Positions 133-57,468 of a stretch of 64,000 nucleotides of DNA are shown piece after piece. The stretch spans positions 1-64,000 of the forward strand of contig CAMVMF010000011.1 of assembly GCA_947168515.1 (NCBI GenBank), given 5' to 3'. Source of the DNA: an uncultured Bacteroidales bacterium. Lineage in GTDB: Bacteria; Bacteroidota; Bacteroidia; Bacteroidales; P3. The position numbers and the translations under genes were made by a program. Position 1 is the first letter of the stretch. Every line of letters begins with the position of its first letter. The notes under the pieces are model-generated. The model did no database searches, was not told the DNA's origin, and saw nothing but the letters and a program-made list of their open reading frames with translations.

Positions 133-3057
133 ATGAAACAAATCCGTCTTATCCTCTGTTTTGTAGCCTTAGCAGTGCTTTCTTGCGGCACCTCTATGGC
201 ACAAAAAACGTACCACTACAAGACCTATCCCAACGACCCGCTGAACGTGCGCGAGTATACGCTGGACAATGGTCTGAAAGTGTTTATGAGCGTCTACAAA
301 GACGCGCCCAAAGTGCAGACCTACATCGCTGTGCGTGCCGGCTCTCGCAACGACCCCCACGAGACCACTGGTCTGGCCCACTATCTGGAGCACATGATGT
401 TCAAAGGCACCCAGAAACTGGGAACCACCGACTGGGAGAAAGAGAAGGTGCTCATCCAAAAGATTGAAGACCTTTTTGAGGCCTACCGTATGTTCGACGA
501 CCCCACAACCCGCGCCGCCATCTATCATAAGATTGACAGCCTGAGCTATGAGGCCTCCAAGATTGCCGTGGCCAACGAGTACGACAAAGCCATGACGGCC
601 ATCGGCTCCACTGGCACCAATGCCTTCACCAGCAATGACTACACCATGTATGTGGAAAACATCCCCAACAACCAGATAGAGACCTGGTGCGAGATTCAGG
701 CCGACCGCTTCCAAAACCTGGTGCTGCGCCTATTCCATACCGAGCTGGAGACCATCTATGAAGAGAAGAACATGAGCCTCACCAAGGACAACCGCAAGGT
801 GAACGACGCCATGTTCGCCGCCCTCTTCCCCCACCACCCCTACGGCAATCAGACCACCCTGGGCAGTCAGGAGCATCTGAAGAACCCCTCCATGCGCAAC
901 ATCCGCAACTTCGTGGCCACCTACTATGTGCCCAACAACATCTGCATCAGCATGGCCGGTGACTTCGATCCCGACGAGGCTATCAAGATTATCGACAAGT
1001 ACTGGGGCAACATGAAGCCCGGCAATGTGCCCGAACTAAAGTTTGAGCGCGAAAAGCCCATCACCAGCGTCATCACCAAGACGGTCTCTGGCCTTGACGC
1101 AGAGAACACCGTGCGCGCCTACCGCCTCGACAGCGGCAACGGCAGCCACGACGCCATGCTGGCCGACCTGCTGGAGAGCGTGCTCAACAACGGCAAGTGC
1201 GGCCTCATCGACCTTAACATCAACCAACAGCAGCGCTGCATGGGTGCCTATGCAGGCACCTATACCCTCAACGACTACGGTGCTTTCATGTTCGGCGGCC
1301 AGCCCATCCAGGGACAAACCTTGGAGCAGGTGCAGGCCCTCTTCGACGAGCAGATTGCACTCGTGAAACAGGGCAAATTCGACGACTGGATGCTCGAAGC
1401 AGCCATCAACAACATGAAACTGGCCATCATGAAACGCGCCGAAAGCAACAACAGCCGCGCCAGCCAGATGGCCTATGCCTTTGTCGAACACCGCTCCTGG
1501 GGCGATGTCTGCAACGAGGTCAACGAACTCTCCAAGATTACCAAAAAGGAAATTGTAGACTTTGCCAACCGTCTGTTCAAGGACAACAACTACGTCATCA
1601 TCAACAAACTGAAAGGCGAACCCGAACCCATCCTGAAAGTATCCAAGCCCCCCATCACCCCCATCGAAGTGGGTCGCGACAAGGAGAGTGCTTTCCTGAA
1701 AGAAATCAAAGCCCGCCAAGTGAAACCCATCGAGCCCGTTTTTGTGGACTTCAGCAAAGACCTGACCAAGTCCAAACTGAAAAACGGCGCCGAAGTGCTC
1801 TATGTTCAGAACACCGAGAACAAGACCTTCAACCTCGTCTACCGTTTCGACTTTGGCTACCGCGCCGGACAAACGGGTAAGACCTTCGACCTTGCCGCCG
1901 ACGTGCTGGAATACCTCGGCACCTCCAAACATACCCCCGAACAGCTGCAGCAGGAATTCTACAAGCTGGCCTGCAACTACAGTGTGAGCGTGGGAACCGA
2001 GAACATCAACGTCAGCATCAGCGGTCTGAGCGAGAACATGACCAAAGCCATGGCCCTGATGGACGAAATACTTTGCGAGGCACAGCCCAACGAGCAGGCT
2101 CTCCAGTTGTTGGTGGCCCGTATCCTCAAAGGCCGTGAGAACGCCAAGCACAACCAGCAGAGCTGCTTCCGCGCCTTGGGCAACTACGGTGTCTATGGCA
2201 GCGACTCGCCTTCCCTCGACCAACTCAGCGAGGCCCAACTGAAAGCCATGACCTGCAACCAGCTCACCGATGCCCTCCACAGCCTCATGAGCTACAAGCA
2301 CCGCGTGCTGTACTACGGCCCCGAAAGTCTCGATAACTTCAAGGCCCTTGCCAACCAGTACACCCACCCCATGAACAAAAAGGCCCCGGCCAACAAGAAG
2401 ATTACCCCCAAGGCCGTCAACGAGAACACCGTTTACTTTGTCGACTACAACGCCAACCAGACCTATATGCGCGAGCACTTCCGCGGCGAGAAATTCAACA
2501 CCAAGAACGAAGCCGTCATGGATGTCTTCAACGAATACTTCGGCGGTTCGATGAACGCCATCGTCTTCCAAGAGATGCGCGAGAAACGCTCCCTTGCCTA
2601 CAGCGCACAGAGCTACTATGCCACTCCTGGCGACAAGGACGGCTACTTCACTAACGCCGCCATCATCGCCACCCAGAACGACAAGCTCATCGATGCCATG
2701 AATGCCTTCAACGAGCTCTTCGACCAGATGCCCGAAGCTCCGGCCAACTTCCAAATGGCCAAGGATGCACAAATCAGTGCCATCCGCACCGCCCGCACCA
2801 CCAAGATGGGCATCATCAACAGCTACCTCTACTACGAGCGCATGGGCTTCAACCCCAAGAAGAACCACGCCAAGATGCTCTTCGAGGCCTACCCCAACGT
2901 CACCATGCAGGATATTGTCAACTTCAACCACAAGTACATCCGTGGCCAGAAGAAGGTCTACATGTGCCTCGGTAAAGAAGCCGACATGGACTTCAACGCC
3001 CTCGCCAAATTCGGCAAGGTGAAGAAGCTGAAACTCGAAGACATCTTCGGATACTAA
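133..3057 (+). CDS. M16 family metallopeptidase (insulinase/pitrilysin-like), secreted
   Basis: 974-aa ORF with signal peptide; HxxEH motif in GLAHYLEHMMFKGT; two-domain M16 layout. Confidence 0.93.
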   Translation: MKQIRLILCFVALAVLSCGTSMAQKTYHYKTYPNDPLNVREYTLDNGLKVFMSVYKDAPKVQTYIAVRAGSRNDPHETTGLAHYLEHMMFKGTQKLGTTDWEKEKVLIQKIEDLFEAYRMFDDPTTRAAIYHKIDSLSYEASKIAVANEYDKAMTAIGSTGTNAFTSNDYTMYVENIPNNQIETWCEIQADRFQNLVLRLFHTELETIYEEKNMSLTKDNRKVNDAMFAALFPHHPYGNQTTLGSQEHLKNPSMRNIRNFVATYYVPNNICISMAGDFDPDEAIKIIDKYWGNMKPGNVPELKFEREKPITSVITKTVSGLDAENTVRAYRLDSGNGSHDAMLADLLESVLNNGKCGLIDLNINQQQRCMGAYAGTYTLNDYGAFMFGGQPIQGQTLEQVQALFDEQIALVKQGKFDDWMLEAAINNMKLAIMKRAESNNSRASQMAYAFVEHRSWGDVCNEVNELSKITKKEIVDFANRLFKDNNYVIINKLKGEPEPILKVSKPPITPIEVGRDKESAFLKEIKARQVKPIEPVFVDFSKDLTKSKLKNGAEVLYVQNTENKTFNLVYRFDFGYRAGQTGKTFDLAADVLEYLGTSKHTPEQLQQEFYKLACNYSVSVGTENINVSISGLSENMTKAMALMDEILCEAQPNEQALQLLVARILKGRENAKHNQQSCFRALGNYGVYGSDSPSLDQLSEAQLKAMTCNQLTDALHSLMSYKHRVLYYGPESLDNFKALANQYTHPMNKKAPANKKITPKAVNENTVYFVDYNANQTYMREHFRGEKFNTKNEAVMDVFNEYFGGSMNAIVFQEMREKRSLAYSAQSYYATPGDKDGYFTNAAIIATQNDKLIDAMNAFNELFDQMPEAPANFQMAKDAQISAIRTARTTKMGIINSYLYYERMGFNPKKNHAKMLFEAYPNVTMQDIVNFNHKYIRGQKKVYMCLGKEADMDFNALAKFGKVKKLKLEDIFGY

Positions 3058-3060
3058 ACT

Positions 3061-3147
3061 AATTGAGATTTGAGAATTGAGAATTGAGAAATATCCTGAT
3101 ACGGCCACTTTTTCTCAATTCTCAATTCTCTAATCTTAATTCTCTAT
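3061..3147. repeat. inverted pair of AATTGAG-type heptamer repeats, possible terminator or stem-loop
   Basis: gagaattgagaattgagaa ... ttctcaattctcaattctc arms between the M16 and DUF3667 genes. Confidence 0.6.
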
Positions 3148-3150
3148 ACT

Positions 3151-6464: not shown

Positions 6465-9122
6465 TTGAAACGCCTCCTGTTCATCCTCTTATTCCTATAT
6501 GTATGCGGCTGCTCGGCACAGACCGACACTGCCTTCTGGTTTACCGCGCCACATGAGTTCAGGAACTCACACTCGTCATACCTGCATATCTTCACCACCG
6601 ACCAGCCAGCAATAGTAACCATTAGCATGCCTGCTGCTTCACCTCTGACATATCCCCCTATCATTGACACCATCGAAGCCAATAGCTTTTCCAGGCATCA
6701 CCTACCATTGGTATGGGTGGGACGCAACATTGGGACAATACCCAATATAATCAACAACTTAGGAATCCTTATTACATCCACAACCCCTGTTTCATGCTAT
6801 CTGGACTACTCCCACATGACTAGTGACATCACTGCTTTGAAGGGAAGCCATGCCCTAGGCACCGACTTTGTGGTTCCTATGCAAAACATAATAGGCTGCC
6901 AGCCCAATGGGTACGACAGGGGCCACATACAGGTCGTAGCCACAGAGGATAGCACGGTGGTCCAAATGACACCACCACCTGGGCGGGCATTTAATGAGCT
7001 AAATATAGACGAGACGGTATCAGTCACTCTAAACAGGGGGCAGAGTTATGGCAGAGAATGTGCCGGTCTTACAGCCCATGACCGATTAGGAGGCACTACC
7101 ATCCATGCCTCGCGACCTATTGCGGTCAGCTTCAACGACTACGACCTGGCGCTCTACAGTCCTACCAATCCTTCCCCTTATGGAGCCTATAATGTGTTGG
7201 GCGACCAAATTCTACCTACCGACAAAACAGGCACACGATATGTAGCGATACGCTCACAAAATGCCGACTCTGACTATTATGAGCAAGTATGGATCTTCCC
7301 CAACCACCCCGACGACACGGTGGAAGTATACTTCAACGGCACCTTCAAGGACATCGTTCACCAACAGCATAATGGCCCATTCCTACTAGAAGACACCGCC
7401 ACACTAATCACCCTCAACAAGGCTGCCGTAGTACTCCAAATGACGTCTATGGCATCCCGTAGCAGCGGGGTAGGAACCACCATGTTGCCACCCATCGACT
7501 GCACAGGGACCCACAAAGCCTCCTATGTGCGCTATTCTTGGAACACTATGCTGCATATCCTGACCAAAAGAGCTTTCGTGTCTGACTTTCTGTTGGATGG
7601 GGACTCCACCTTTATAACAGCCAGCGACTTCCACACCCTTTCGGCCGACACCTCGCTGGCGTGGTGTTGCAAAGAGATTGTAACCCCCATAACCAATCCT
7701 TTCCATACAATTGACAGCCTGATAACCCTTGAAAATCGGTCCGGAACGTTCCATTTAGGTGTCCTTGAGCATAGAGGAGGTGCTCAAAACAATGCTGACT
7801 ACATCTACGATTGTGTGTTTGGCTATTTCTACGACTACAACCAACCATCACAAATCCGCCTCACGCTCGACACCGCCTATTGCAAAGGCGACAGCATCCT
7901 CTTCGCCTACGATGCCCCCCATATCGACGGTTTAGAACTTAGGGGTCCCAACGGCCTGCACCTGACTCAACCCCCCTTCGTACTCTACAATGTCGACAGC
8001 AACGCCACTGGGCGATACTATCTAGAAGGTGTTGACACCACCAGTTGCCACCAGTTGCGCACCGACTCGATAGACATAGTGGTGAGAGGTGGACACCTCA
8101 GTTTACTGACAGACACAACCTTCTGTACTGGAGACAGCATTTGTATCAATTATTCGGCTTCTGCCGATGTGGTAGACATTAGGCTGCATTGTCCTAACGG
8201 ACAAGTGATAGAGTCGCTCCCCTTAGTCCTCACCGAGGCAGACACCTCTATGAGCGGCCTCTATTGGATAGAGGGGAGGGATACGGGCCGTTGCCAGAGG
8301 GCTGTGGCCGACAGTTGCTATATACGAATAGTCAACAACCCCTATGCACAAGTATATGACACTATTGCCGAAAATCAACTACCATACACTCGCTACGAAA
8401 CCACCTTCGATGGGGATACCGATATTGTTTTGGTGGTGCCCAGTTCCTCATCGGTATGCGACAGCATTATAGACTACCATCTGAAAGTGTTTTACAATAC
8501 AGAAGACACTGTGCACTACTATACCTGCGAAAGCAATCTGCCAGTGCAATATGAGGGTGAGTGGTTTGATACGGAACAACAGCAAGGCCTATTCCACTTC
8601 ACGGGCAGCCATGGACAGGACAGCACCGTCACCTTCATTTTGCACGTCATACCCAACAGCGACACAACCATCTACGACACCATCCTAGACTCCCAGCTTC
8701 CATGGACCTTTAACGACATTGTTTTCGACGACTCGGTAGCCAACTACACCATCACCCTCACCAACGAGCAGGGTTGTGACAGCCTCATCCTTTACAACCT
8801 GCACGTATTCTGGAACGGCGACCGCTGCGACACCAACCTATCCTTCCCCAACCTCGTCACCCCTAACGGCGACGGCACCAACGACCGCTTCGTCATCACA
8901 GGACTACTGGAAAACAACTGCTTCAAATACAACGAGCTCTCCATCTACGACCGCACCGGCCGCCGTGTCTACCACAAAGTCAACATCGCCAACGACGACG
9001 ACTGGTGGGACCCCGCAGCACAACGCCTCACCGCCGGCACCTACTTCTACTACTTCAAAGCCCACGGCATCACCATCCACACCCAACACACCGGAGTCAT
9101 CGAGGTGCTGACCGATAAATAA
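6465..9122 (+). CDS. Secreted IgGFc-binding-like protein with T9SS type B C-terminal domain (paralog 2)
   Basis: 885 aa; same architecture; predicted TTG start. Confidence 0.78.
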   Translation: MKRLLFILLFLYVCGCSAQTDTAFWFTAPHEFRNSHSSYLHIFTTDQPAIVTISMPAASPLTYPPIIDTIEANSFSRHHLPLVWVGRNIGTIPNIINNLGILITSTTPVSCYLDYSHMTSDITALKGSHALGTDFVVPMQNIIGCQPNGYDRGHIQVVATEDSTVVQMTPPPGRAFNELNIDETVSVTLNRGQSYGRECAGLTAHDRLGGTTIHASRPIAVSFNDYDLALYSPTNPSPYGAYNVLGDQILPTDKTGTRYVAIRSQNADSDYYEQVWIFPNHPDDTVEVYFNGTFKDIVHQQHNGPFLLEDTATLITLNKAAVVLQMTSMASRSSGVGTTMLPPIDCTGTHKASYVRYSWNTMLHILTKRAFVSDFLLDGDSTFITASDFHTLSADTSLAWCCKEIVTPITNPFHTIDSLITLENRSGTFHLGVLEHRGGAQNNADYIYDCVFGYFYDYNQPSQIRLTLDTAYCKGDSILFAYDAPHIDGLELRGPNGLHLTQPPFVLYNVDSNATGRYYLEGVDTTSCHQLRTDSIDIVVRGGHLSLLTDTTFCTGDSICINYSASADVVDIRLHCPNGQVIESLPLVLTEADTSMSGLYWIEGRDTGRCQRAVADSCYIRIVNNPYAQVYDTIAENQLPYTRYETTFDGDTDIVLVVPSSSSVCDSIIDYHLKVFYNTEDTVHYYTCESNLPVQYEGEWFDTEQQQGLFHFTGSHGQDSTVTFILHVIPNSDTTIYDTILDSQLPWTFNDIVFDDSVANYTITLTNEQGCDSLILYNLHVFWNGDRCDTNLSFPNLVTPNGDGTNDRFVITGLLENNCFKYNELSIYDRTGRRVYHKVNIANDDDWWDPAAQRLTAGTYFYYFKAHGITIHTQHTGVIEVLTDK

Positions 9123-9135
9123 AAGTAAAAGGTAA

Positions 9136-9307
9136 GGCTCTAGTTTAATATAAGACTGATTTTTTACAGCCTCGAAGAGGCTGAATCTCAGTAACACCGT
9201 ACAAGCGTAGCGCAGTGCGGTGACGGAATAAACTCACTCCTAGCGTCCCGAAGGGACGCGACATTGAGACCGTTTGGCAAAAATCAGTCATATGTTGTAC
9301 TAGAGCG
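9136..9307 (+). mobile_element. MITE-like element copy A (172 bp)
   Basis: GGCTCTAGTTTAATATAAGACTGATTTTT ... AAAAATCAGTCATATGTTGTACTAGAGCG imperfect TIRs; 8-bp TSD AAAGGTAA at 9128-9135 and 9308-9315. Confidence 0.8.
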
Positions 9308-9619
9308 AAAGGTAAAAACTAAAAACTAAAAGGGTGGACGGGGCCGTTGAGAATGGAGAATGTAGAATTGAGAATTGAGATTTTTTTAAAGGTAAAAACT
9401 AAAAACTAAAAAGGTGGACGGGGCCGTTGAGAATTGAGAATTGAGATTTTTTTAAAGGTAAAAACTAAAAACTAAAAGAGTGGACGGGGCCGTTGAGAAT
9501 GGAGAATTGAGAATTGAGAATGGAGAATTGAGAATTTTTTAAAGGTAAAAACTAAAAACTAAAAAGGTGGACGGGGCCGTTGAGAATGGAGAATTGAGAA
9601 TTGAGAATTGCAATCCCAT
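9308..9619. repeat. Tandem array of ~66-87 bp units (aaaggtaaaaactaaaaactaaaa...gtggacggggccgttgagaat[t/g]gaga...)
   Basis: four unit starts at 9308, 9388, 9454, 9541; unit length varies with number of AATTGAG/AATGGAG sub-repeats. Confidence 0.85.
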
Positions 9620-9677
9620 GCAATAATTTTCTTCTCCGCACGTTATATCTAGAACACTTAATATACGTAATGGATAA

Positions 9678-12086
9678 ATGAAGCGGTTATTGCTTATAGC
9701 TTTTGTGTTTCTTTCTTCAGTCTGCCAAGCACAGACCGACACGGTATTTTGGTTTGCCGCACCCGACCTCTCCAGACTCAACAGCGATCCGTCGGAGCAG
9801 GTGGCCCGACTGGTCTTCCACACCTACGACCAACCTGCCACCATCACCATCGAGCAACCAGCCAACAGCCTCTTTCCGACCCATACCATCACCCTGCCTG
9901 CCAACGGACAGGCCGTCGATGACTTCATGTCTCTCTACTACAATAACTTTCTTGCCACCTCTCCTTCTAACACTATCCTAGACCGCGGTCTGCGCGTCTC
10001 TTCCTCCGCTCCCATCACCTGTTACTTCCAAATCACCTCCTCCCACCGCGAAACCTACACCCTCAAAGGTCGCCATGCCTTGGGGACGACCTTCTATCTG
10101 CTCTCGCCCTTGCCTTACCAGGACACCCCTTGGTTTGAAAATGGGCAAAGCATCGAAATTGTCGCCACCGAGGACAGCACCCTTGTCCTCATCACCGCAC
10201 CCAACTACGTCGACACTTTTGGCTACGACAATATTTGGTGGCACTACAACCATGGCACCGCCGTGTTCGAAGACAACGTGATGCCCGACAGCACCATCAG
10301 CATCATGCTCCACCGTGGCCAGAGCTACTGCTTGCGTGCCAAGCACCACGACACCGAAATCATCCGCACCATCATCCAGGCCTCACACCCCATCGCCGTC
10401 AACACCACCTCCTTCGACTGCATGTCCCGTGCCGTCGAGGGCGACACCACGCGGCATTCCGACATAGCCGGTGAGCAGCTGGTGCCTATTGAATATTGGG
10501 GGAATGAATACCTCCTCTTCAACACCCATTCCCATTCCGAGGTCTTCAAGGAACTCTTCCGCAGCTACACTTACCCGTCCGTCCATGGGTGGTTCAACAT
10601 CATCTTCAACGACGTCTATTACTTCATCGACGACCGCTGGTCGTTCAACGGCACCGGCTTCCTCCATCAGATTGACCCCAATCTACGCATGGGGGCCACC
10701 ATCCTCCCCCAGTTAGATTGTTCCGGCTCCCATCAAATCTCCTATCGCAGCTCCGATAGCACCTCCCTCACCATCCACATGGTCATCCCCACCTCTGCCA
10801 CCGGCCACATCCTCTTCAACGGTGACTCCACTATTATCACCGCAGCAGACTTCAGCCCAGCCCCACGCAACCCCCGGCTCTCCTTCTGCGTCAAAGAGGT
10901 CACCCCTTTCCTCACCCCCTTGGATTCCCTCACCACTGCCGGCGTGATGAACATCCGCTGCGACTCGGCCAAATTCCTCCTAGCCGTCATTGAATCCGAC
11001 AGCACCCACGGCACCTCATACACCTACCTCACCGACTACGCCCCCAACCCTAAGCTGTTCTTCAACATGGACACCGATTACTGTGCCGGCGACGACATAA
11101 TCTTCTCTTTCGACAATTACAACATCGACAGCCTTCGCATCCTCTGCCCAGACGGCAGCGTTCTGTCCGCCCCTCCCTACATCCTCTCCAATGCCGACAC
11201 CTCCATGAGCGGAGCTTACATCGTCGAAGGCATCACCCACAACGACTGCCACCCCATCGTATCCGACACCATCAACATCCACATCTTCGATGTCCCCCAT
11301 GAGCACATCTATGACACCGCCACCTCCAATGCCTTGCCGTTGAGCCGCTTCGGTATGCTCTTCTTCCACACAACCGACACTATCATCCTGCGTCCCAACC
11401 CTGCAGCACCCTGCGACAGCGTCCTGCACTACCACCTTTTTGTCCTACCCGATGTCTCCGACACAGTGATTTACTATACCTGTGAGGGCGACCTGCCGGT
11501 ACAATACGGCGACAGCCTTTTCTACCAAGAGGGCGAGGGCACATTCCACTTCTATGGCAGCCACGGCGAGGACAGCCTTGTCACCTTTATTCTCCACATC
11601 ATCCCCAACAGCGATACCACCATCTACGACACCATCACCGAAGACCAGCTGCCATGGTACGCCTTCGACACCGTGTTCACAGACTCGGTGGCCGACTATA
11701 TCTACCACACCAACAACGAGGCAGGCTGCGACAGCCTCGTCCACTACAACCTGTATGTCTTTTGGAACGGCGACCACTGCGACACCAATCTCTCCTATCC
11801 CAACCTCGTCACACCCAACGGCGACGGCACCAACGACCGCTTCGTCATCATGGGCCTACTGGAAAACAACTGCTTCAAATACAACGAGCTCTCCATCTAC
11901 GACCGCACCGGCCGCCGTGTCTACCACAAAGTCAACATCGCCAACGAGAGCGACTGGTGGGACCCCGCCGCTCAGCACATCCCCGCCGGCACCTATTTCT
12001 ACTACTTCAAGGCCCACGGTGTCACTATCCACACCCAGCACACCGGAGTCATCGAGGTGCTGACCGAAAAGAAAAGTAAAAGGTAA
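9678..12086 (+). CDS. Secreted IgGFc-binding-like protein with T9SS type B C-terminal domain (paralog 3)
   Basis: 802 aa; signal peptide; HALGTTF...IVATEDST; VTPNGDGTNDRFVIMGLLENNCFKYNELSIYDRTGRRVY. Confidence 0.8.
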   Translation: MKRLLLIAFVFLSSVCQAQTDTVFWFAAPDLSRLNSDPSEQVARLVFHTYDQPATITIEQPANSLFPTHTITLPANGQAVDDFMSLYYNNFLATSPSNTILDRGLRVSSSAPITCYFQITSSHRETYTLKGRHALGTTFYLLSPLPYQDTPWFENGQSIEIVATEDSTLVLITAPNYVDTFGYDNIWWHYNHGTAVFEDNVMPDSTISIMLHRGQSYCLRAKHHDTEIIRTIIQASHPIAVNTTSFDCMSRAVEGDTTRHSDIAGEQLVPIEYWGNEYLLFNTHSHSEVFKELFRSYTYPSVHGWFNIIFNDVYYFIDDRWSFNGTGFLHQIDPNLRMGATILPQLDCSGSHQISYRSSDSTSLTIHMVIPTSATGHILFNGDSTIITAADFSPAPRNPRLSFCVKEVTPFLTPLDSLTTAGVMNIRCDSAKFLLAVIESDSTHGTSYTYLTDYAPNPKLFFNMDTDYCAGDDIIFSFDNYNIDSLRILCPDGSVLSAPPYILSNADTSMSGAYIVEGITHNDCHPIVSDTINIHIFDVPHEHIYDTATSNALPLSRFGMLFFHTTDTIILRPNPAAPCDSVLHYHLFVLPDVSDTVIYYTCEGDLPVQYGDSLFYQEGEGTFHFYGSHGEDSLVTFILHIIPNSDTTIYDTITEDQLPWYAFDTVFTDSVADYIYHTNNEAGCDSLVHYNLYVFWNGDHCDTNLSYPNLVTPNGDGTNDRFVIMGLLENNCFKYNELSIYDRTGRRVYHKVNIANESDWWDPAAQHIPAGTYFYYFKAHGVTIHTQHTGVIEVLTEKKSKR

Positions 12087-12366
12087 AAACTAAAAACTAG
12101 AAGGGTGGACGGGGCCGTTGAGAATAGAGAATTGAGAATTTTTAAAAAGTAAAAGGTAAAAACTAAAAACTAAAAGGTTTATGAAGATTAGCTCCGCGTA
12201 TCTCACGTATATTCACGTATTTTTATCCTCGTGATACGTGTGATACGGGGATTTAACTCCGCTGCCAAATCCCTAAAACTAAAAAGGTGGACGGGGTGAG
12301 AATTGAGAATTGAGAGTTGAGAATTGAGAGTTGAGAATTGAGAATTGAGAGTTGAGAATTGAGCTA
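12072..12366. repeat. Degenerate copies of the gtaaaaggtaaaaactaaaa / gtggacggggccgttgagaat / AATTGAG repeat family
   Basis: same words as 9308-9619, interrupted by the hairpin at 12197-12247. Confidence 0.75.
12197..12247. repeat. Intergenic hairpin CGTATCTCACGTAT...ATACGTGTGATACG
   Basis: 13/14 complementary arms flanked by gattagctccgcg / ggatttaactccgctgcc. Confidence 0.55.
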
Positions 12367-12385
12367 ACAACGATTTTTCGGATCA

Positions 12386-20067: not shown

Positions 20068-22884
20068 CTAGTTGGGACAGTATTTGAGGAGCAGTTCGGC
20101 GAGACCGATCTTGTAGCCGGTGCTGTGGAAGAGGATGTTGCCCTGCTTGTCCACCACGGCCACCAGGGGATATTCGTATTCGGTCAGCCCAAGCGCTTGG
20201 GCCACGGCCACCTCCAAGGGGTCTTTGTCGCCGGTGGGCAGCGGCACGATGTCGACATTCTTCAGCTGGACCAAGTCGCGATTGGCGGGTTCGGTGGTGG
20301 TGACATAGGCCATACCGTTCCAGCGTTTGAACTCCTGCTGGTGTTCCAACATCTCTTTGACAAGGTGCTTGGCGGGTTCGCGGTGGCTGCCGAGGAAGGC
20401 AAAGATGGCACCCGTGCCATCGGCATAGTCCTCGATAGTCACGCCCTCGGTGATGGCCAGTTGGTTGGAGATCTTGGCCCCCGAGGCCTGCTGCCGCTCC
20501 ACCAGGGGGCGGATGATGATTTCCTTGGTGACATGCTGGCCCTCACGGACTGTGAAGAACTCCATGCGGCTGAGCACATCGCCCTCGGGGTAGCGACTGC
20601 CGGTGCAGAGGCAGTAGTAGCCGGGCTCAAGGTCGATGGTGGCGGGGAAATGGTCCATGCGGGGGTCGCCCTCGAAGTCAAAGGTGCGGAAGTCGCCGTT
20701 CTCGAGCTTTTGTAGGGTGAAGTGGGGGTAGTAGATGGGGGTGGCGGGGTCTTTGCCACGGTAGGTGAGGGTTAATTGAGAATTGAGAATTGAGAATTGA
20801 GAATTGTTGGTTGTAGATTTGTGGTTGAAGTCGGTCTTTTGCCAGTCGGTGCCGTCCCAGACGTAGATGGTGTTGGTGGCGTTGTCGAGGTAGGCGGGTA
20901 TGTCTAATGCACGGCAGGCAGCCACAAAGAAGATGTCGCGGCTGTGGGCATCGGCGTGGCGCAGGCGGTACACGCCCATCGGAGAGATGGGGCAGTTGTA
21001 GTAGTTGCCGGTGTCGTCCACGGCAATGTTCTCAAGGGTCCATTGCTTCAGGGCTTCAAAATCTTGCTTATACTCTTCGGGCTGTTGTCGGTACCAAATA
21101 GGATAGGTGGTGTCAACTTTGCGGATACTGGGCGACAGCTCCTTTAACAGGGGCTTCCGCCAGTCGCGTACCAGCTCGTTGCTGATGCGGGCAGGGAGGA
21201 TGCCTTTCTTATAGACATCGTAGGTGTAGAGGGCTGTGGTGCAGGTGCCTTTGACGCGGTCCAGCCAGTCGAAGCCGGTTTCTTGGGCCTGGAGGACATC
21301 GGCGGTGATGTCGCGGAGGTCTTTGTCGGAGTAGGACTTTAGGTAGTCGTATATGTGTTCGCCACTGCGGTACTGGCCTCTCCAGTGCTCGAAGTAATTG
21401 TATATCTCGGCATAGTTGCCTTCGGATTTCTGGATGATTTCCCACACTTGCTCGTCGGAGAAGTGGTCGGGGCGCCAGAGCCAGTCCTTGGGGAGGAAGC
21501 TCTTGAAGTTGTCCTTGGAGGGGAAGGTGGCAGTGTAGGCACTGCGGAGGGAGTCCTCGTAGGCTATGCGGCGGGCGTTGGCGGCAGCGGCCTCGTCGGT
21601 GGGGGTCACCTTGGCCTGACCGGCCACGGGGGGCACGATGTCGAGGAGGACGACTTTGTGGGAGCTATCGGAGGGGTCGGAGTAATCGGAGTAATCGGAA
21701 TAATCAGAATAATCTGAGTACTCTGAGTACTCTGAGTTTTCTGATTTTCTTGAGAGGGTGAGGGTTAGGGTGCTGTCTTTTCTTACGTCGAGTTTGCTGA
21801 AGTTATAGCGGGTGCCGTCGGTGGCCCATACTAGGATGTCGCCGAGGCCGGTGGTGAGGCCGGCCTGACCGTTGGCATCGGTCTCATAGTCGGCCAGGGT
21901 GTAGTACTCGGCGTAGTTGTACATCTTGAATTTCACGTGAGTGCCGGGCAGGGGTTTGCCGCTGGGGTCGCACACGGTGACGGTGACGTGGCGGGTGGGG
22001 GCATAGTGGCTGAGGAGGTTGAGCTCGCTGTAGAGAGCGGTCTGCTTGACCACCTCTTCGTCGCCATGGTAGCGGCCAAAGGCCTTGCTGTGGACCATGA
22101 GGCAGCGGGTGCTGGGCACGGCAAACCAGCCCATGTTGAGCTCGGGGTCGGGTTCGCAGGCACCGAGGAACTTCCACTCACCACCTTTGCCTTTGGGGTC
22201 GGCAATCCACACCTCGACCCATGCGTGGTTGTCGTCGCAGTGGGCCCAGCGGGGGGTGTAGCACTGGCGGGCAGGGATGCCCACAGCGCGCAGGGCGGTG
22301 ACGGCAAAGGTGCTCTCCTCGCCGCAGCGGCCGAGAGAGGTGCGCATGGTGGCCAGGGGGGCGCTGGTGCGGCTGTCGGCGGCACGGTACGCCACATGCT
22401 CGTGGCACCAGTGGTTGACCTCTAGGGCGGCCTGCTCCATGGTCATGCCTTTGACACGGTCTTTGAGTGTGCGGAACATGAACATGCGGGCGGTGTCGAG
22501 GTTCTCGTTATTGACGCGGTAGACCAGCACAAAGTGGCGGAAGATGTCCTCTGGCACGTCCTTGCCCCAGCTGAAGGTGTCGCGGGCGGCAAAAGCGGTG
22601 CGCACCTGGGCAAGGTAGAAAGCACCGTCATAGTCGGCCAAATCGCTATAGGGCATATATGCATAGAGGAATTCCAAGGCCTCCCGGTCGCGGCGACAGA
22701 GCGTGTCCATGCCAGTGAAGAGGGCCTCTGCCCTACCCTGTGCTAGTTGCTGGCGCTGTAAGAAGTCGGCATGAACCTGGTCGCGGTACTGCCGGTCGGT
22801 GATGAAATGGGGGTCGCGGTTGCAGGCCGCAAAGGCCATGGCGGCAACCATGACGAACAAGAGTTTGATAAGATTCTGTTTCAT
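20068..22884 (-). CDS. Transglutaminase-like domain lipoprotein
   Basis: ORF track 20068..22914; lipobox start MKQNLIKLLFVMVAAMAFAAC at 22884; transglutaminase core GRCGEESTFAVTALRAVGIPARQCYTPRWAHCDDNHAWVEVW. Confidence 0.85.
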   Translation of the reverse strand: MKQNLIKLLFVMVAAMAFAACNRDPHFITDRQYRDQVHADFLQRQQLAQGRAEALFTGMDTLCRRDREALEFLYAYMPYSDLADYDGAFYLAQVRTAFAARDTFSWGKDVPEDIFRHFVLVYRVNNENLDTARMFMFRTLKDRVKGMTMEQAALEVNHWCHEHVAYRAADSRTSAPLATMRTSLGRCGEESTFAVTALRAVGIPARQCYTPRWAHCDDNHAWVEVWIADPKGKGGEWKFLGACEPDPELNMGWFAVPSTRCLMVHSKAFGRYHGDEEVVKQTALYSELNLLSHYAPTRHVTVTVCDPSGKPLPGTHVKFKMYNYAEYYTLADYETDANGQAGLTTGLGDILVWATDGTRYNFSKLDVRKDSTLTLTLSRKSENSEYSEYSDYSDYSDYSDYSDPSDSSHKVVLLDIVPPVAGQAKVTPTDEAAAANARRIAYEDSLRSAYTATFPSKDNFKSFLPKDWLWRPDHFSDEQVWEIIQKSEGNYAEIYNYFEHWRGQYRSGEHIYDYLKSYSDKDLRDITADVLQAQETGFDWLDRVKGTCTTALYTYDVYKKGILPARISNELVRDWRKPLLKELSPSIRKVDTTYPIWYRQQPEEYKQDFEALKQWTLENIAVDDTGNYYNCPISPMGVYRLRHADAHSRDIFFVAACRALDIPAYLDNATNTIYVWDGTDWQKTDFNHKSTTNNSQFSILNSQLTLTYRGKDPATPIYYPHFTLQKLENGDFRTFDFEGDPRMDHFPATIDLEPGYYCLCTGSRYPEGDVLSRMEFFTVREGQHVTKEIIIRPLVERQQASGAKISNQLAITEGVTIEDYADGTGAIFAFLGSHREPAKHLVKEMLEHQQEFKRWNGMAYVTTTEPANRDLVQLKNVDIVPLPTGDKDPLEVAVAQALGLTEYEYPLVAVVDKQGNILFHSTGYKIGLAELLLKYCPN
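20774..20806. repeat. (AATTGAG)n heptamer repeat inside CDS
   Basis: four and a half copies of aattgag; encodes NNSQFSILNSQL. Confidence 0.9.
21669..21752. repeat. 9-bp tandem repeat (TCGGAGTAA-like) inside CDS
   Basis: encodes SENSEYSEYSDYSDYSDYSDYSDPSD. Confidence 0.9.
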
Positions 22885-41900: not shown

Positions 41901-44900
41901 CCCGTGGGTCGGGAGCACACCAGGCGCATGATTTCGACATTGTCGATGGCGATGGGAGGTTGGTTGGTGACAGAACCGTCGTTGCGCCACACGAAGAGCA
42001 TGTGGTACACACCTGCGTTGGGGACACTGATGACGTCGCTCTGCGTCCGCCAAGTGCTGTTGAGATTGAGCTTGGTATTGCCGTCGAGCGAAATCCAGTC
42101 CGAAGGCATGGCACTAGCGCTCAGGCCAGAAGGCAGGGCGGTGCCGGCACTGAAAGATTGCGACACCGGCACCAGGGCGGCACGGAGGAAGTCGAAGGTG
42201 CTTTCGCCCTGGCACTTCCAGTCAAAAGAGTAGCCGTAATCGCCGGGAGCACTCAGCATCAGGTCCACATAGGCGTAAACTACCGAGCTGCTGGCTCCGT
42301 CATAGTTGTTGGTGGAACCGTTGGTGTTGGAAATGTAGAGGCCGTGGCCGCCGCCATTGTGGGCAGCGGTGCCAACGTACCACTTATTGGTTACTGAGCC
42401 GTTCTCCAGAATCCACAGATTATTCTGAGTCGTGTTCTCAAAGTTGCACACAAAGGGGAGTCCGACGTATGAGTTGGCAGTGCGATAGGAGGCAACGACA
42501 ACACCGCCAATGCCACTGGCGCAGTCGGGTGACACATACACGTCATACAGTGTGTTGGCGGTCAGGCCAGTGATGGTGTAGGGCAGCGATGTAACCGAAA
42601 CGGTAGTACCCGCACTGGAGCCTGGGGTGAATCCGGCAGGGCCATACTCCAACGTCCACGAAGTGGCAGTGCCCATCTCGGTCCATGTAAGCGTCAGGTA
42701 ATTGGAGTCGATGGCCGTGAGCGTGAGGTTGTCGATAGACGGACAATCGGGCGCATACTCCACGGTCAGGTCGTCGAGGTAGGGATAGCTGTATTCGCCG
42801 CTGGGCGACATGATGGCTATGCGGGCGCCGGGGGTGGTGTCCACATAGTTGGCAAAGGAAACCGTGAACTCTTCCCACGCAGAGAGAGCCGAGTTCTGCA
42901 CCGTGTCGATGGGGACGAAGGTGCTCTCGTCGTTCTCATTGGTGATCACACCCACGATGAGGCGGTGGTTGTAGGAGGTGTTGGTCTTATACAGCCAGAA
43001 ACGCACCTGCAGGGAGTCGATGGTAGGCTCAAAATCGGGCAGCACCATATAACTCCATGTGGTACTGGTAGAATACATATACAAGGCCTTGCTGCCACCA
43101 GGGTTGTGGTTGTAGCTGGTGGAGGCGTAGGGGTAGCTGGTGGAGTAGTTGGTCTTTTTATACCAGCATTGGGGCAACGGGTCGGCAGTAGAGCTGGACC
43201 AGGTGTCGAAGCCCTCAGTGAAAGGCACGGAGGCAGGCAGACAGGAAGTGTGGAAGGAGGTGTAGGCCGTACCGCCTATGCCATCAGCACAGTCGGTGGT
43301 GACATACACGTCGTAATTGGTGTTGGGGGTCAGGCCGACGAGGTTGACTATAGTGTCATAGGCATAGATGGTGTCGCCAGCACCGTCAGCAAAGCCGGAA
43401 GGTCCCATCACCAGGGTCCAGCTGGTGGCATCGCCCTGCTCTTCCCACTTGATGTCGGCGGAGTAGCCGGTAATATTGATGGCAGCCAGATTGTCGACAG
43501 GCGGACAGTCCGGTATGTACTCCACCGTCAGGTCGTCGAGGTAGGGATAGCTGTATTCACCGTTGGGCGACATGATGGCTATGCGGGCGCCGGGGATGGT
43601 GTCCACATAGTTGGCGAATGAAACCGTGAACTCTTCCCACGTAGAGAGAGCCGAGTTCTGCACCGTGTCGATGGGGATGAAGGTGTTCTCGTTGTTTTCG
43701 GCGGTGATCACACCCACATAGAGGCGGTGGTTGTAGGAGGTGTTGGTCTTATACAGCCAGAAACGCACCTGCAGCGAGTCCAACGAGGGCTCGAAATCGG
43801 GCAGCACCATATAACTCCATGTGGTACTGGTAGAATACATATACAAGGCCTTGCTGCCACCAGGGTTGTGGTTGTAGCTGGTGGAGGCGTAGGGGTAGCT
43901 GGTGGAGTAGTTGGTCTTTTTATACCAGCATTGGGGCAACGGGTCGACAGTAGAGCTGGACCAGGTGTCGAAGCCCTCGCTGAAAGGCACAGGATAGGCC
44001 CCACAGCTGGTGTGGAAGGTGATGTAGGCCGTACCGGCAACGCCGCTGGGACAGTCGGGGATGACATACAGGTCATAGTTGGTGTTGGGGGTCAGGCCGA
44101 CGAGGTTGACTATGGTGTCGTAGACATAGGTGGTGGTGCCAGTGCCGAGGGTGAAACCGGCAGGTCCCAGCTCTACGGTCCAGCTGGTGGCATCGCCTAT
44201 CTCCTCCCAAGCGATGTCGGCGGTGGTACCGGTGATACTGACAATTTCCAAATTGTCAACAGCCGGGCAGTCGGGTATGTACTCCACCGTCAGTTCGTCG
44301 AGGTAGGGATAGCTGTATTCGCCGTCGGGCGACATGATGGCTATGCGGGCGCCGCTAATGGTGTCCACATAGCGGTCCATCGGTATGGTGAACTCCTCCC
44401 ACGTGGAGGTGGTAGAGTTTTGCACCGTGTCCACGGGGACGAAGGTGGTCTCGTCGTTCTCATCGGTGATTACGCCCACGATGAGGCGGTGGTTGTAGGT
44501 GGAGTTGGACTTATACAGCCAGAAACGCACCTGCAGCGAGTCGATAGTAGGTATAAATTCGGGCAGCACCATATAGCTCCATGTGGTATTGGAAGAATAC
44601 ATATACATGGCTTTGCTGCCGCCGGCATTGTGGTTGTAGCTGGTGGAGGCATAAGGATAGTTGGTAGAATAGTTGGTCTTTTTATACCAGCAGTCGGGCA
44701 GCGGGTCGGCAGTAGCGGTGGACCAAGTGTCGAACCCCTCGTGGAAAGGCACGGGCGTACCTCCACAATGGGTACGGAAAGTGATTTGGGCGGCTATATT
44801 GGTGTCGGAGCAGAGCGACATCACACGCACCACATAGTTACTGTTGGCCTGGAGGCCGGTGATGGTGTAATCGGTAGCGGTGACCGCCATGGCAGCATTG

Positions 44901-47443: not shown

Positions 47444-47615
47444 GGCTCTAGTTTAATATAAGACTGATTTTTTACAGCCTCGAAGAGGCTGAATCTCAGT
47501 AACACCGTACAAGCGTAGCGCAGTGCGGTGACGGAATAAACTCACTCCTAGCGTCCCGAAGGGACGCGACATTGAGACCGTTTGGCAAAAATTAGTCATA
47601 TGTTGTACTAGAGCG
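47444..47615 (+). mobile_element. MITE-like element copy B (172 bp)
   Basis: one mismatch to copy A by eye; perfect 8-bp TSD TTATATTT at 47436-47443 and 47616-47623. Confidence 0.85.
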
Positions 47616-48139: not shown

Positions 48140-48300
48140 CTAGAGACCTCCATAACGTAGTGCAGAAAGCAGCCCCTAGCAGTTGCTCCGCTGCCCAACA
48201 GCGGGTGAAGAAGGCCTCCAGTGGAGGGCTTCGATAACGAAGTGGAGAAAGCAACCCTCCGCGGTTGCTCCGCTGTCAAACAGCGGTCCGCGGATTCGAA
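48140..48300. repeat. Degenerate tandem hairpin-rich repeats including a free-standing GAAGAA...CCAGTGG...TTCGATAACGAAGTGGAGAA module (48207-48250)
   Basis: ccgctgcccaacagcgg / ccgctgtcaaacagcgg and gcagaaagcagcccc / ggagaaagcaaccct repeated with substitutions. Confidence 0.7.
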
Positions 48301-48398
48301 CATGGCGTAAGCGAGAGTCCGAAAATTTATTTTCGAGACCGAGCCATAGCCATGTCAGCCTCCGCTAACATGGCGCAAGCGAGAGTCCGATAATTTAT
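48301..48398. repeat. Palindromic repeat 2 (catggcg[t/c]aagcgagagtccga[a/t]aatttat...tttcgagaccgagcca[t/a]agccatgtcagcctc), second copy interrupted by MITE C
   Basis: copy 1 48301-48360; copy 2 starts at 48368 and resumes at 48623. Confidence 0.7.
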
Positions 48399-48622
48399 GG
48401 CTCTAGTTTAATATAAGACTGATTTTTTACAGCCTCGAAGAGGCTGAATCTCAGTAACACCGTACAAGCGTAGCGCAGTGCGGTGACGGAATAAACTCAC
48501 TCCTAGCGTCCCGAAGATGAAGAAGAGCCAGTGGCTCTTCGATAACGAAGTACAACGAAGTGGAGAAAAAAAACGACATTGAGACCGTTTGGCAAAAATC
48601 AGTCATATGTTGTACTAGAGCG
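48399..48622 (+). mobile_element. MITE-like element copy C (224 bp, one hairpin module inserted)
   Basis: same ends as A/B; 57-bp segment 48517-48573 replaces the 5-bp GGACG. Confidence 0.75.
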
Positions 48623-48800
48623 ATTAATTTTCGAGACCGAGCCAAAGCCATGTCAGCCTCTGCAAACATGGCGGACATCAAACAAAAGAAAACTTCATCG
48701 TACGAACTTACAATGGAAAGGGTATGTCTGTCTTGTCCATCTGCATTTCTCGAATTGTGAAAAAGGTCTCCGGCGACTTTTGGCAGGAAACGATTAAAAG

Positions 48801-57205: not shown

Positions 57206-57468
57206 CGCTCTAGTACAACATATGACTGATTTTTGCCAAACGGTCTCAATGTCGTTTTTTTTCTCCACTTCGTTGTACTTCGTTATCGAAGAGCCACTGG
57301 CTCTTCTTCATCTTCGGGACGCTAGGAGTGAGTTTATTCCGTCACCGCACTGCGCTACGCTAAATTCTCCGCTTCGCTATCGAAAGTCCACTGGACTTTC
57401 TTCACAGTGTTACTGAGATTCAGCCTCTTCGAGGCTGTAAAAAATCAGTCTTATATTAAACTAGAGCC
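57206..57468 (-). mobile_element. MITE-like element copy D (263 bp, two hairpin modules inserted)
   Basis: reverse orientation; perfect 8-bp TSD AAAAAAAT at 57198-57205 and 57469-57476. Confidence 0.8.

Follow-up and report, generated by a model that had tools for sequence, protein, structure and literature searches.

A putative new family of short REP/RPE-like palindromes with covarying stems in MITEs and genes of uncultured Bacteroidales

Introduction

The window analysed here, a stretch of 64,000 nucleotides from an uncultured Bacteroidales bacterium, contains four copies (A to D) of a Miniature Inverted-repeat Transposable Element (MITE), some of which carry an additional short hairpin module. 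The first-pass annotation of this DNA had described a series of 0, 0, 1 and 2 modules over the four copies and had suggested a second, smaller element that targets or replaces hairpin loops. The locus thus raises the question of whether the module is a mobile element in its own right and, if so, of what kind.

Results

The host element has terminal inverted repeats and a target-site duplication, the features of a MITE, the duplication being 8 bp long at copies A, B and D and not clear at C. Alignment of the four copies bore out the 0, 0, 1, 2 series (Table 1). After GCGTCCCGAAG, C and D hold an A, a 50-bp module and AAAAAA instead of the 5-bp GGACG of A and B, which corresponds to the 57-bp insert described in the first-pass annotation. 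Copy D has a further 39 bp relative to C, its second site reading CACTG, a 40-bp module and TTTAGCG in place of CACCGTACAAGCG. The module replaces parts of hairpins in the MITE, a REP-like GCGTCCC-GAA-GGGACGC and a CACCG..CGGTG palindrome. The free-standing copy that the annotation had listed was also recovered, directly followed by AGCAACCCTCCGCGGTTGCT, the extra hairpin of a longer variant.

Several other repeats were observed in the window. Copy C is embedded in another repeated sequence (48299-48398 and 48628-48672, CATGGCGYAAGCGAGAGTCCG..TTTTCGAGACCGAGCC), tandem arrays of a TTGAGAA-type heptamer with partly inverted copies lie at 3049-3150, 9269-9623, 12040-12374 and 20762-20819, and the region 32252-61017 holds large families of similar, apparently coding repeats, for example with a 762-bp period at 42726-44790.

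Table 1. Positions of MITE copies, modules and associated hairpins in the window
Feature	Position	Strand	Description	Basis
MITE copy A	9136..9307	+	172 bp, no module, 8-bp TSD AAAGGTAA	alignment
MITE copy B	47444..47615	+	172 bp, no module, 8-bp TSD TTATATTT	alignment
REP-like hairpin	47551-47567		GCGTCCCGAAGGGACGC, inside MITE B	
Module relic	48152..48205	+	degenerate, left-truncated, longer variant (ATAACGTAGTGCAGAAAGCAGCCCC..CAACAGCGG), adjoins free-standing module	by eye
Free-standing module	48206..48249	+	44 bp, stem GGCCTC/GAGGGC	
MITE copy C	48399..48622	+	224 bp, one module, net +52	alignment
Module in MITE C	48518..48567	+	TGAA..GGAGAA, 50 bp	
Hairpin of module in MITE C	48522-48540		GAAGAGCCAGTGGCTCTTC	
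A-rich right junction in MITE C	48568..48573	+	replaces target bases (GGACG in A/B)	
MITE copy D	57206..57468	-	263 bp, two modules, 8-bp TSD ATTTTTTT	alignment
First module in MITE D	57261..57310	-	site and sequence same as in MITE C	
Second module in MITE D	57365..57404	-	40 bp, net +39 bp, hairpin GAAAGTCCAGTGGACTTTC	

Over 175 instances with 139 distinct upstream contexts, the module has sharp ends and unrelated flanks. It is mostly 40-50 bp long, with one short asymmetric hairpin (8-bp stem, 5-nt loop), and is built, in order, of an upstream R-T-G-A-A, the hairpin GAA-stem-C-N-G-T-G-stem'-TTC, GATARCG, a variable spacer (A, T, TCA, ACCAAAGGG and longer), AGCGGAGAA and a weak A-rich run. 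Three pieces are fixed, namely the 5' foot RTGAAGAA, the loop CNGTG and a 17-nt 3' arm, GATARCGNAGYGGAGAA; nearly all instances have the foot TGAA on the 5' side and GATA, which reads TATC on the opposite strand, on the 3' side. Folded as single-stranded DNA, the copies in the window beat their shuffled counterparts (z -3.2 to -4.3). A coding motif was rejected as an explanation, since stem length shifts the frame between copies. In the longer variant (window 48206-48290; L012, L030, L069, L203), the module is followed by a second hairpin of varying stem (GCAACC..GGTTGC, GGCACC..GGTGCC, GCGCACC..GGTGCGC), which also seems to stay paired.

The observation that the flanks of this second, smaller repeat family are conserved, with stems that are divergent yet self-complementary, held up when the stems were collected by patterns that did not require complementarity. 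Variants include AGT/ACT, ATG/CAT, GTG/CAC, CAT/ATG, CTG/CAG, GCT/AGC and GGGTTG/CAACCC, and in 49 distinct arm pairs 90% of the positions were Watson-Crick paired, against 58% (maximum 68%) with the arms re-dealt. The covariation score was 0.481 against 0.116 after shuffling, with slid controls at or below 0.10 (nearly gap-free alignment), and the stems without covariation that the annotation had linked to simple duplication were thus not encountered. Depending on the species, one orthologous MITE site has GAG/CTC, a mismatched GTG/CTC (L072) or GTG/CAC, and these are the steps that would be expected of compensation. Pairing of this kind could also arise without selection, if template switching during replication perfects palindromes and the modules spread only by recombination or with host elements. 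Mismatched intermediates do exist (25 of 243 arm pairs, and the GTG/CTC stem just mentioned), as do tandem arrays of 41-42 bp units, found at contig ends. However, template switching accounts for the pairing and not for the precision with which modules of fixed ends have entered unrelated genes, and we consider it improbable as the whole explanation.

In regard to copy number, TTCGATARCGAAG with up to one mismatch was found four times in the window, against 0.07 matches expected. In the genome, the pattern CCASTGGN{2,12}TTCGNTARCGNAG had 33 matches, against 0 for the reversed pattern, and a covariance model detected 53 module copies at E<=0.001 in the 3.26-Mb draft; the scarcity of genome-wide matches that would have spoken for a mere duplication was therefore not seen. 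The true count is probably above 53, because several contig ends fall within module arrays. The idea that one sequence was simply duplicated along with the MITE is hardly credible: copies C and D do share one module, present also in the MITE copies of L001, L016, L024 and L026-L028, but the majority of modules are not in the MITE at all, differ in their stems and have flanks that are unrelated to one another. These non-MITE modules, the covariation of the arm pairs and the empty sites in a KilA-N gene (see below) refute it.

Matches to the module pattern were present in 60 of the 120 genomes of the genus and in all four genomes of the sister genus g5, and absent from every other genus of the about 128 sampled. 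When 296 genomes of the order were scanned with the covariance model, only the module's own genome and two weak single matches were returned, neither of the latter being accepted as a homologue (L400 is only loosely motif-like, L399 has no motif match). Five matches in viral contigs, as well as single matches outside the order (Hyphomicrobiales, Clostridia, Maribacter and others), involved long gaps and were taken as chance. The named records bearing modules are uncultured rumen and gut Bacteroidales, including bacterium P3 and UBA1219. Each genome is dominated by its own stem variants, such as ATG/CAT in G038, with 25 modules, or AGCATC/GATGGT in G105, which points to amplification within genomes.

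Modules are mostly intergenic, with 22 sites between convergent and 11 between divergent gene pairs (p=0.08), a gene-end and convergent bias that resembles that of REPs. Together with the strong covariation and the conserved single-stranded arms, as in functional RNAs, the intergenic preference could suggest a structured RNA element (a regulator, a processing site or a terminator) that is retained for its role in gene regulation and has spread only incidentally. Against this, the preference in orientation for co-directional genes was not significant (27 against 17, p=0.17), modules also occur inside ORFs, MITEs and tandem arrays, an Rfam search of the window gave no match, and no conserved gene context was noticed around the modules. 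We regard an RNA function of this kind as very unlikely.

Among the loci compared, 31 modules have an empty relative. In the KilA-N gene, two modules are found in G054, the first only in G047, and none in G029, G037 and the outgroups; each module adds 39 bp, the ORF is still open, and the G047 protein is 96% identical to that of G054 at the amino acid level. A DinD-like Bro-N gene is longer by 42 bp through a module, again with an open ORF, and an IS5-type transposase of the window's own genome carries an in-frame module, with a net +33 bp relative to the empty L105 by hand count. All of these net gains (33-42 bp) are divisible by three. Read from the distribution among genomes, such comparisons show modules recently gained at defined sites in related species. 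No terminal inverted repeat or target-site duplication of the module itself was seen by eye in the 31 comparisons. On the left, most modules join the target directly after a purine-T step, with 7 of 18 empty targets not starting with T, and at the right junction about 6-11 target bases correspond to 8 filled-site bases, often CAAAA-like. The A content there is 0.56 in filled sites against 0.32 in the empty target bases, as hand-read in a table of 18 events; both the A-rich junction and the "RT" rule come from few clean events, whose flanks are roughly 75-100% identical. In several coding events the ORF does not continue through the module (L068, L282, L354), and retention of the frame therefore looks more like a result of selection than a property of the insertion mechanism. 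A binomial value of 0.001 for in-frame coding events was discarded, since it came from a hand-picked table in which some sites are not open ORFs.

A separate observation concerns the pyruvate:ferredoxin oxidoreductase (PFOR) gene, near whose intact copy partial, mostly C-terminal copies occur in several species (L352:7447-8493; L353:5113-5535, 6972-7670; L354:16864-17757; L355:2568-3959; L361:7161-7586; L362:178-843). Most of them have in-frame extra peptides, some module-encoded in either orientation and some from other sequences, and several of these inserts are common to different species. Values of dN/dS are 0.07-0.28 between fragments and the intact gene and 0.05-0.32 among fragments, for which gene conversion or older divergence may be the source.

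The proposal that the module targets or replaces hairpin loops stood for the MITE and one other palindromic host and failed as a rule. In 8 of 9 settings, the complementarity of the flanks at 124 distinct sites did not exceed that of permuted flanks, and the ninth gave a marginal excess (3 of 200 permutations). Nesting as in the MITE is thus not the general case, and general hairpin-loop targeting was rejected. Unstructured sites, coding sequence among them, also receive modules. A second palindromic host family (CGTTTTCTCGCCTCAGCATA..CTGCGTTCGGCTTAACGAAAACG) was seen with zero, one or several modules (L020, L002, L246, L169, L191).

A Y1 (HUH, RAYT) transposase of these genomes could mobilise the module in trans, as TnpA-REP does with REPs. 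The architecture fits, the hairpin having a fixed loop and a foot of four constant nucleotides, which read TATC or TGAA depending on the strand. RAYTs are also widespread, occurring in 73 of the 120 genomes of the genus, three RAYT genes are closely followed downstream by modules, TATC-footed hairpins are found near two (L149, L165), and RAYTs and modules co-occur weakly (odds ratio 2.5, p=0.02, uncorrected for phylogeny). On the other hand, a RAYT in a REPtron is flanked by inverted pairs of the same palindrome, and none of the 116 Y1 genes has inverted modules on its two sides in this way; the module was therefore rejected as the cognate REP of these RAYTs. Their own flanking palindromes, where present, carry other feet, e.g. 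GAGC or TGTC, the palindromes neighbouring the three module-adjacent RAYTs differ as well, and G038 and G050, both drafts, have many modules and no Y1 match. With no transposase tied to the module among the 116 Y1/RAYT genes, such mobilisation appears rather unlikely. Many RAYT genes have palindromes of variable stem next to them, and at a number of the RAYT loci (L149-L178, L295-L321, L446-L505) inverted palindromes have a foot in common (GAGC, TGTC, GGGC, others) and differ in their stems.

Discussion

The module probably belongs to the REP/RPE kind of mobile palindromes, as a non-autonomous element, and we read it as a new family of such palindromes. A trans-acting enzyme would recognise the folded single strand through the loop and flanks and put a copy of the module after a purine-T step, several target bases on the right presumably turning into a short stretch that is often rich in A. 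Pairing could be maintained in the stem variants through selection for recognition, through quasi-palindrome (template-switch) correction, or through both. Modules within the MITE would be amplified passively along with it, and insertions into genes would survive mostly if the frame is kept. A bolder and quite improbable version is a SINE-like or single-strand-templated bacterial element, a hairpin of ~40 nt recognised by its loop and 3' arm and copied by a putative enzyme, with an often A-rich 3' junction replacing target bases, so that genomes would accumulate families with freely drifting yet always paired stems and in-frame peptide inserts.

How tagged palindromic repeats spread without a dedicated transposase is an open question (PMC3733652). 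The REP/RPE-like family described here offers near-identical filled and empty gene pairs (as in KilA-N), defined junctions, a stem series at one site and host-gene copies, making recognition and insertion directly testable. It also means that protein genes of gut Bacteroidales gain 11-14 codons in one step.

Among known systems, the module differs from cut-and-paste MITEs, in that the filled and empty sites compared by eye showed neither terminal inverted repeats nor a target-site duplication for it. With REPs and REPINs associated with a RAYT it shares a hairpin with a fixed foot, whereas it has no cognate RAYT among the 116 Y1 genes and no GTRG foot. Pneumococcal BOX elements have a modular structure, with a variable number of hairpin sub-modules nested in a larger repeat, which recalls the situation in the MITE. 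In contrast to the sub-modules of BOX elements (PMC3049150), the module is itself found dispersed, as insertions into many hosts that are not related. For REPs, insertion in frame has been described, for example within tnpA-REP of subclass 2.4, abundant in Bacteroidetes (Nunvar 2010, PMC2817692; PMC6006769). Rickettsia RPE-1 (Ogata et al. 2000, reviewed in PMC2229807) is likewise a selfish palindrome that occurs between genes and also, in frame, within protein genes, as the module does in KilA-N, DinD-like and IS5 transposase genes that have module-free relatives. However, RPE-1 is a palindrome of 105-146 bp with terminal inverted repeats, in contrast to the shorter, asymmetric module with its stem turnover at an orthologous site.

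In the open-access literature searched, we found no description of the module family. The closest known kind appears to be the CGTC-tagged REPs (Di Nocera et al. 2013, PMC3733652), which include Rickettsia RPE-4/RPE-6 and Neisseria dRS3 and occur in Bacteroidetes, inside genes and near gene ends, without a dedicated transposase. The module resembles them in all of these respects of location and autonomy, as well as in its short stem-loop with a fixed tetranucleotide foot, a loop of 4-5 nt, an unpaired tail and heterogeneous stems; its stem length falls within their range of about 6-13 bp, and it is dispersed and mostly intergenic, as tagged REPs are. The unpaired tags of such repeats (GTAG, CGTC, TGTC/CCTC or GTRG) are, however, replaced by the feet TGAA/GATA (GATA being TATC on the other strand; the CGTC-tagged REPs have CGTC/TGTC/CCTC), the stem starts with G-A-A rather than A-T, and the module has a conserved 17-nt 3' arm, a CNGTG loop and an often A-rich right junction. 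It carries none of these tags, its loop and 3' arm are peculiar to it, and we file it as a new family of the REP/RPE kind.
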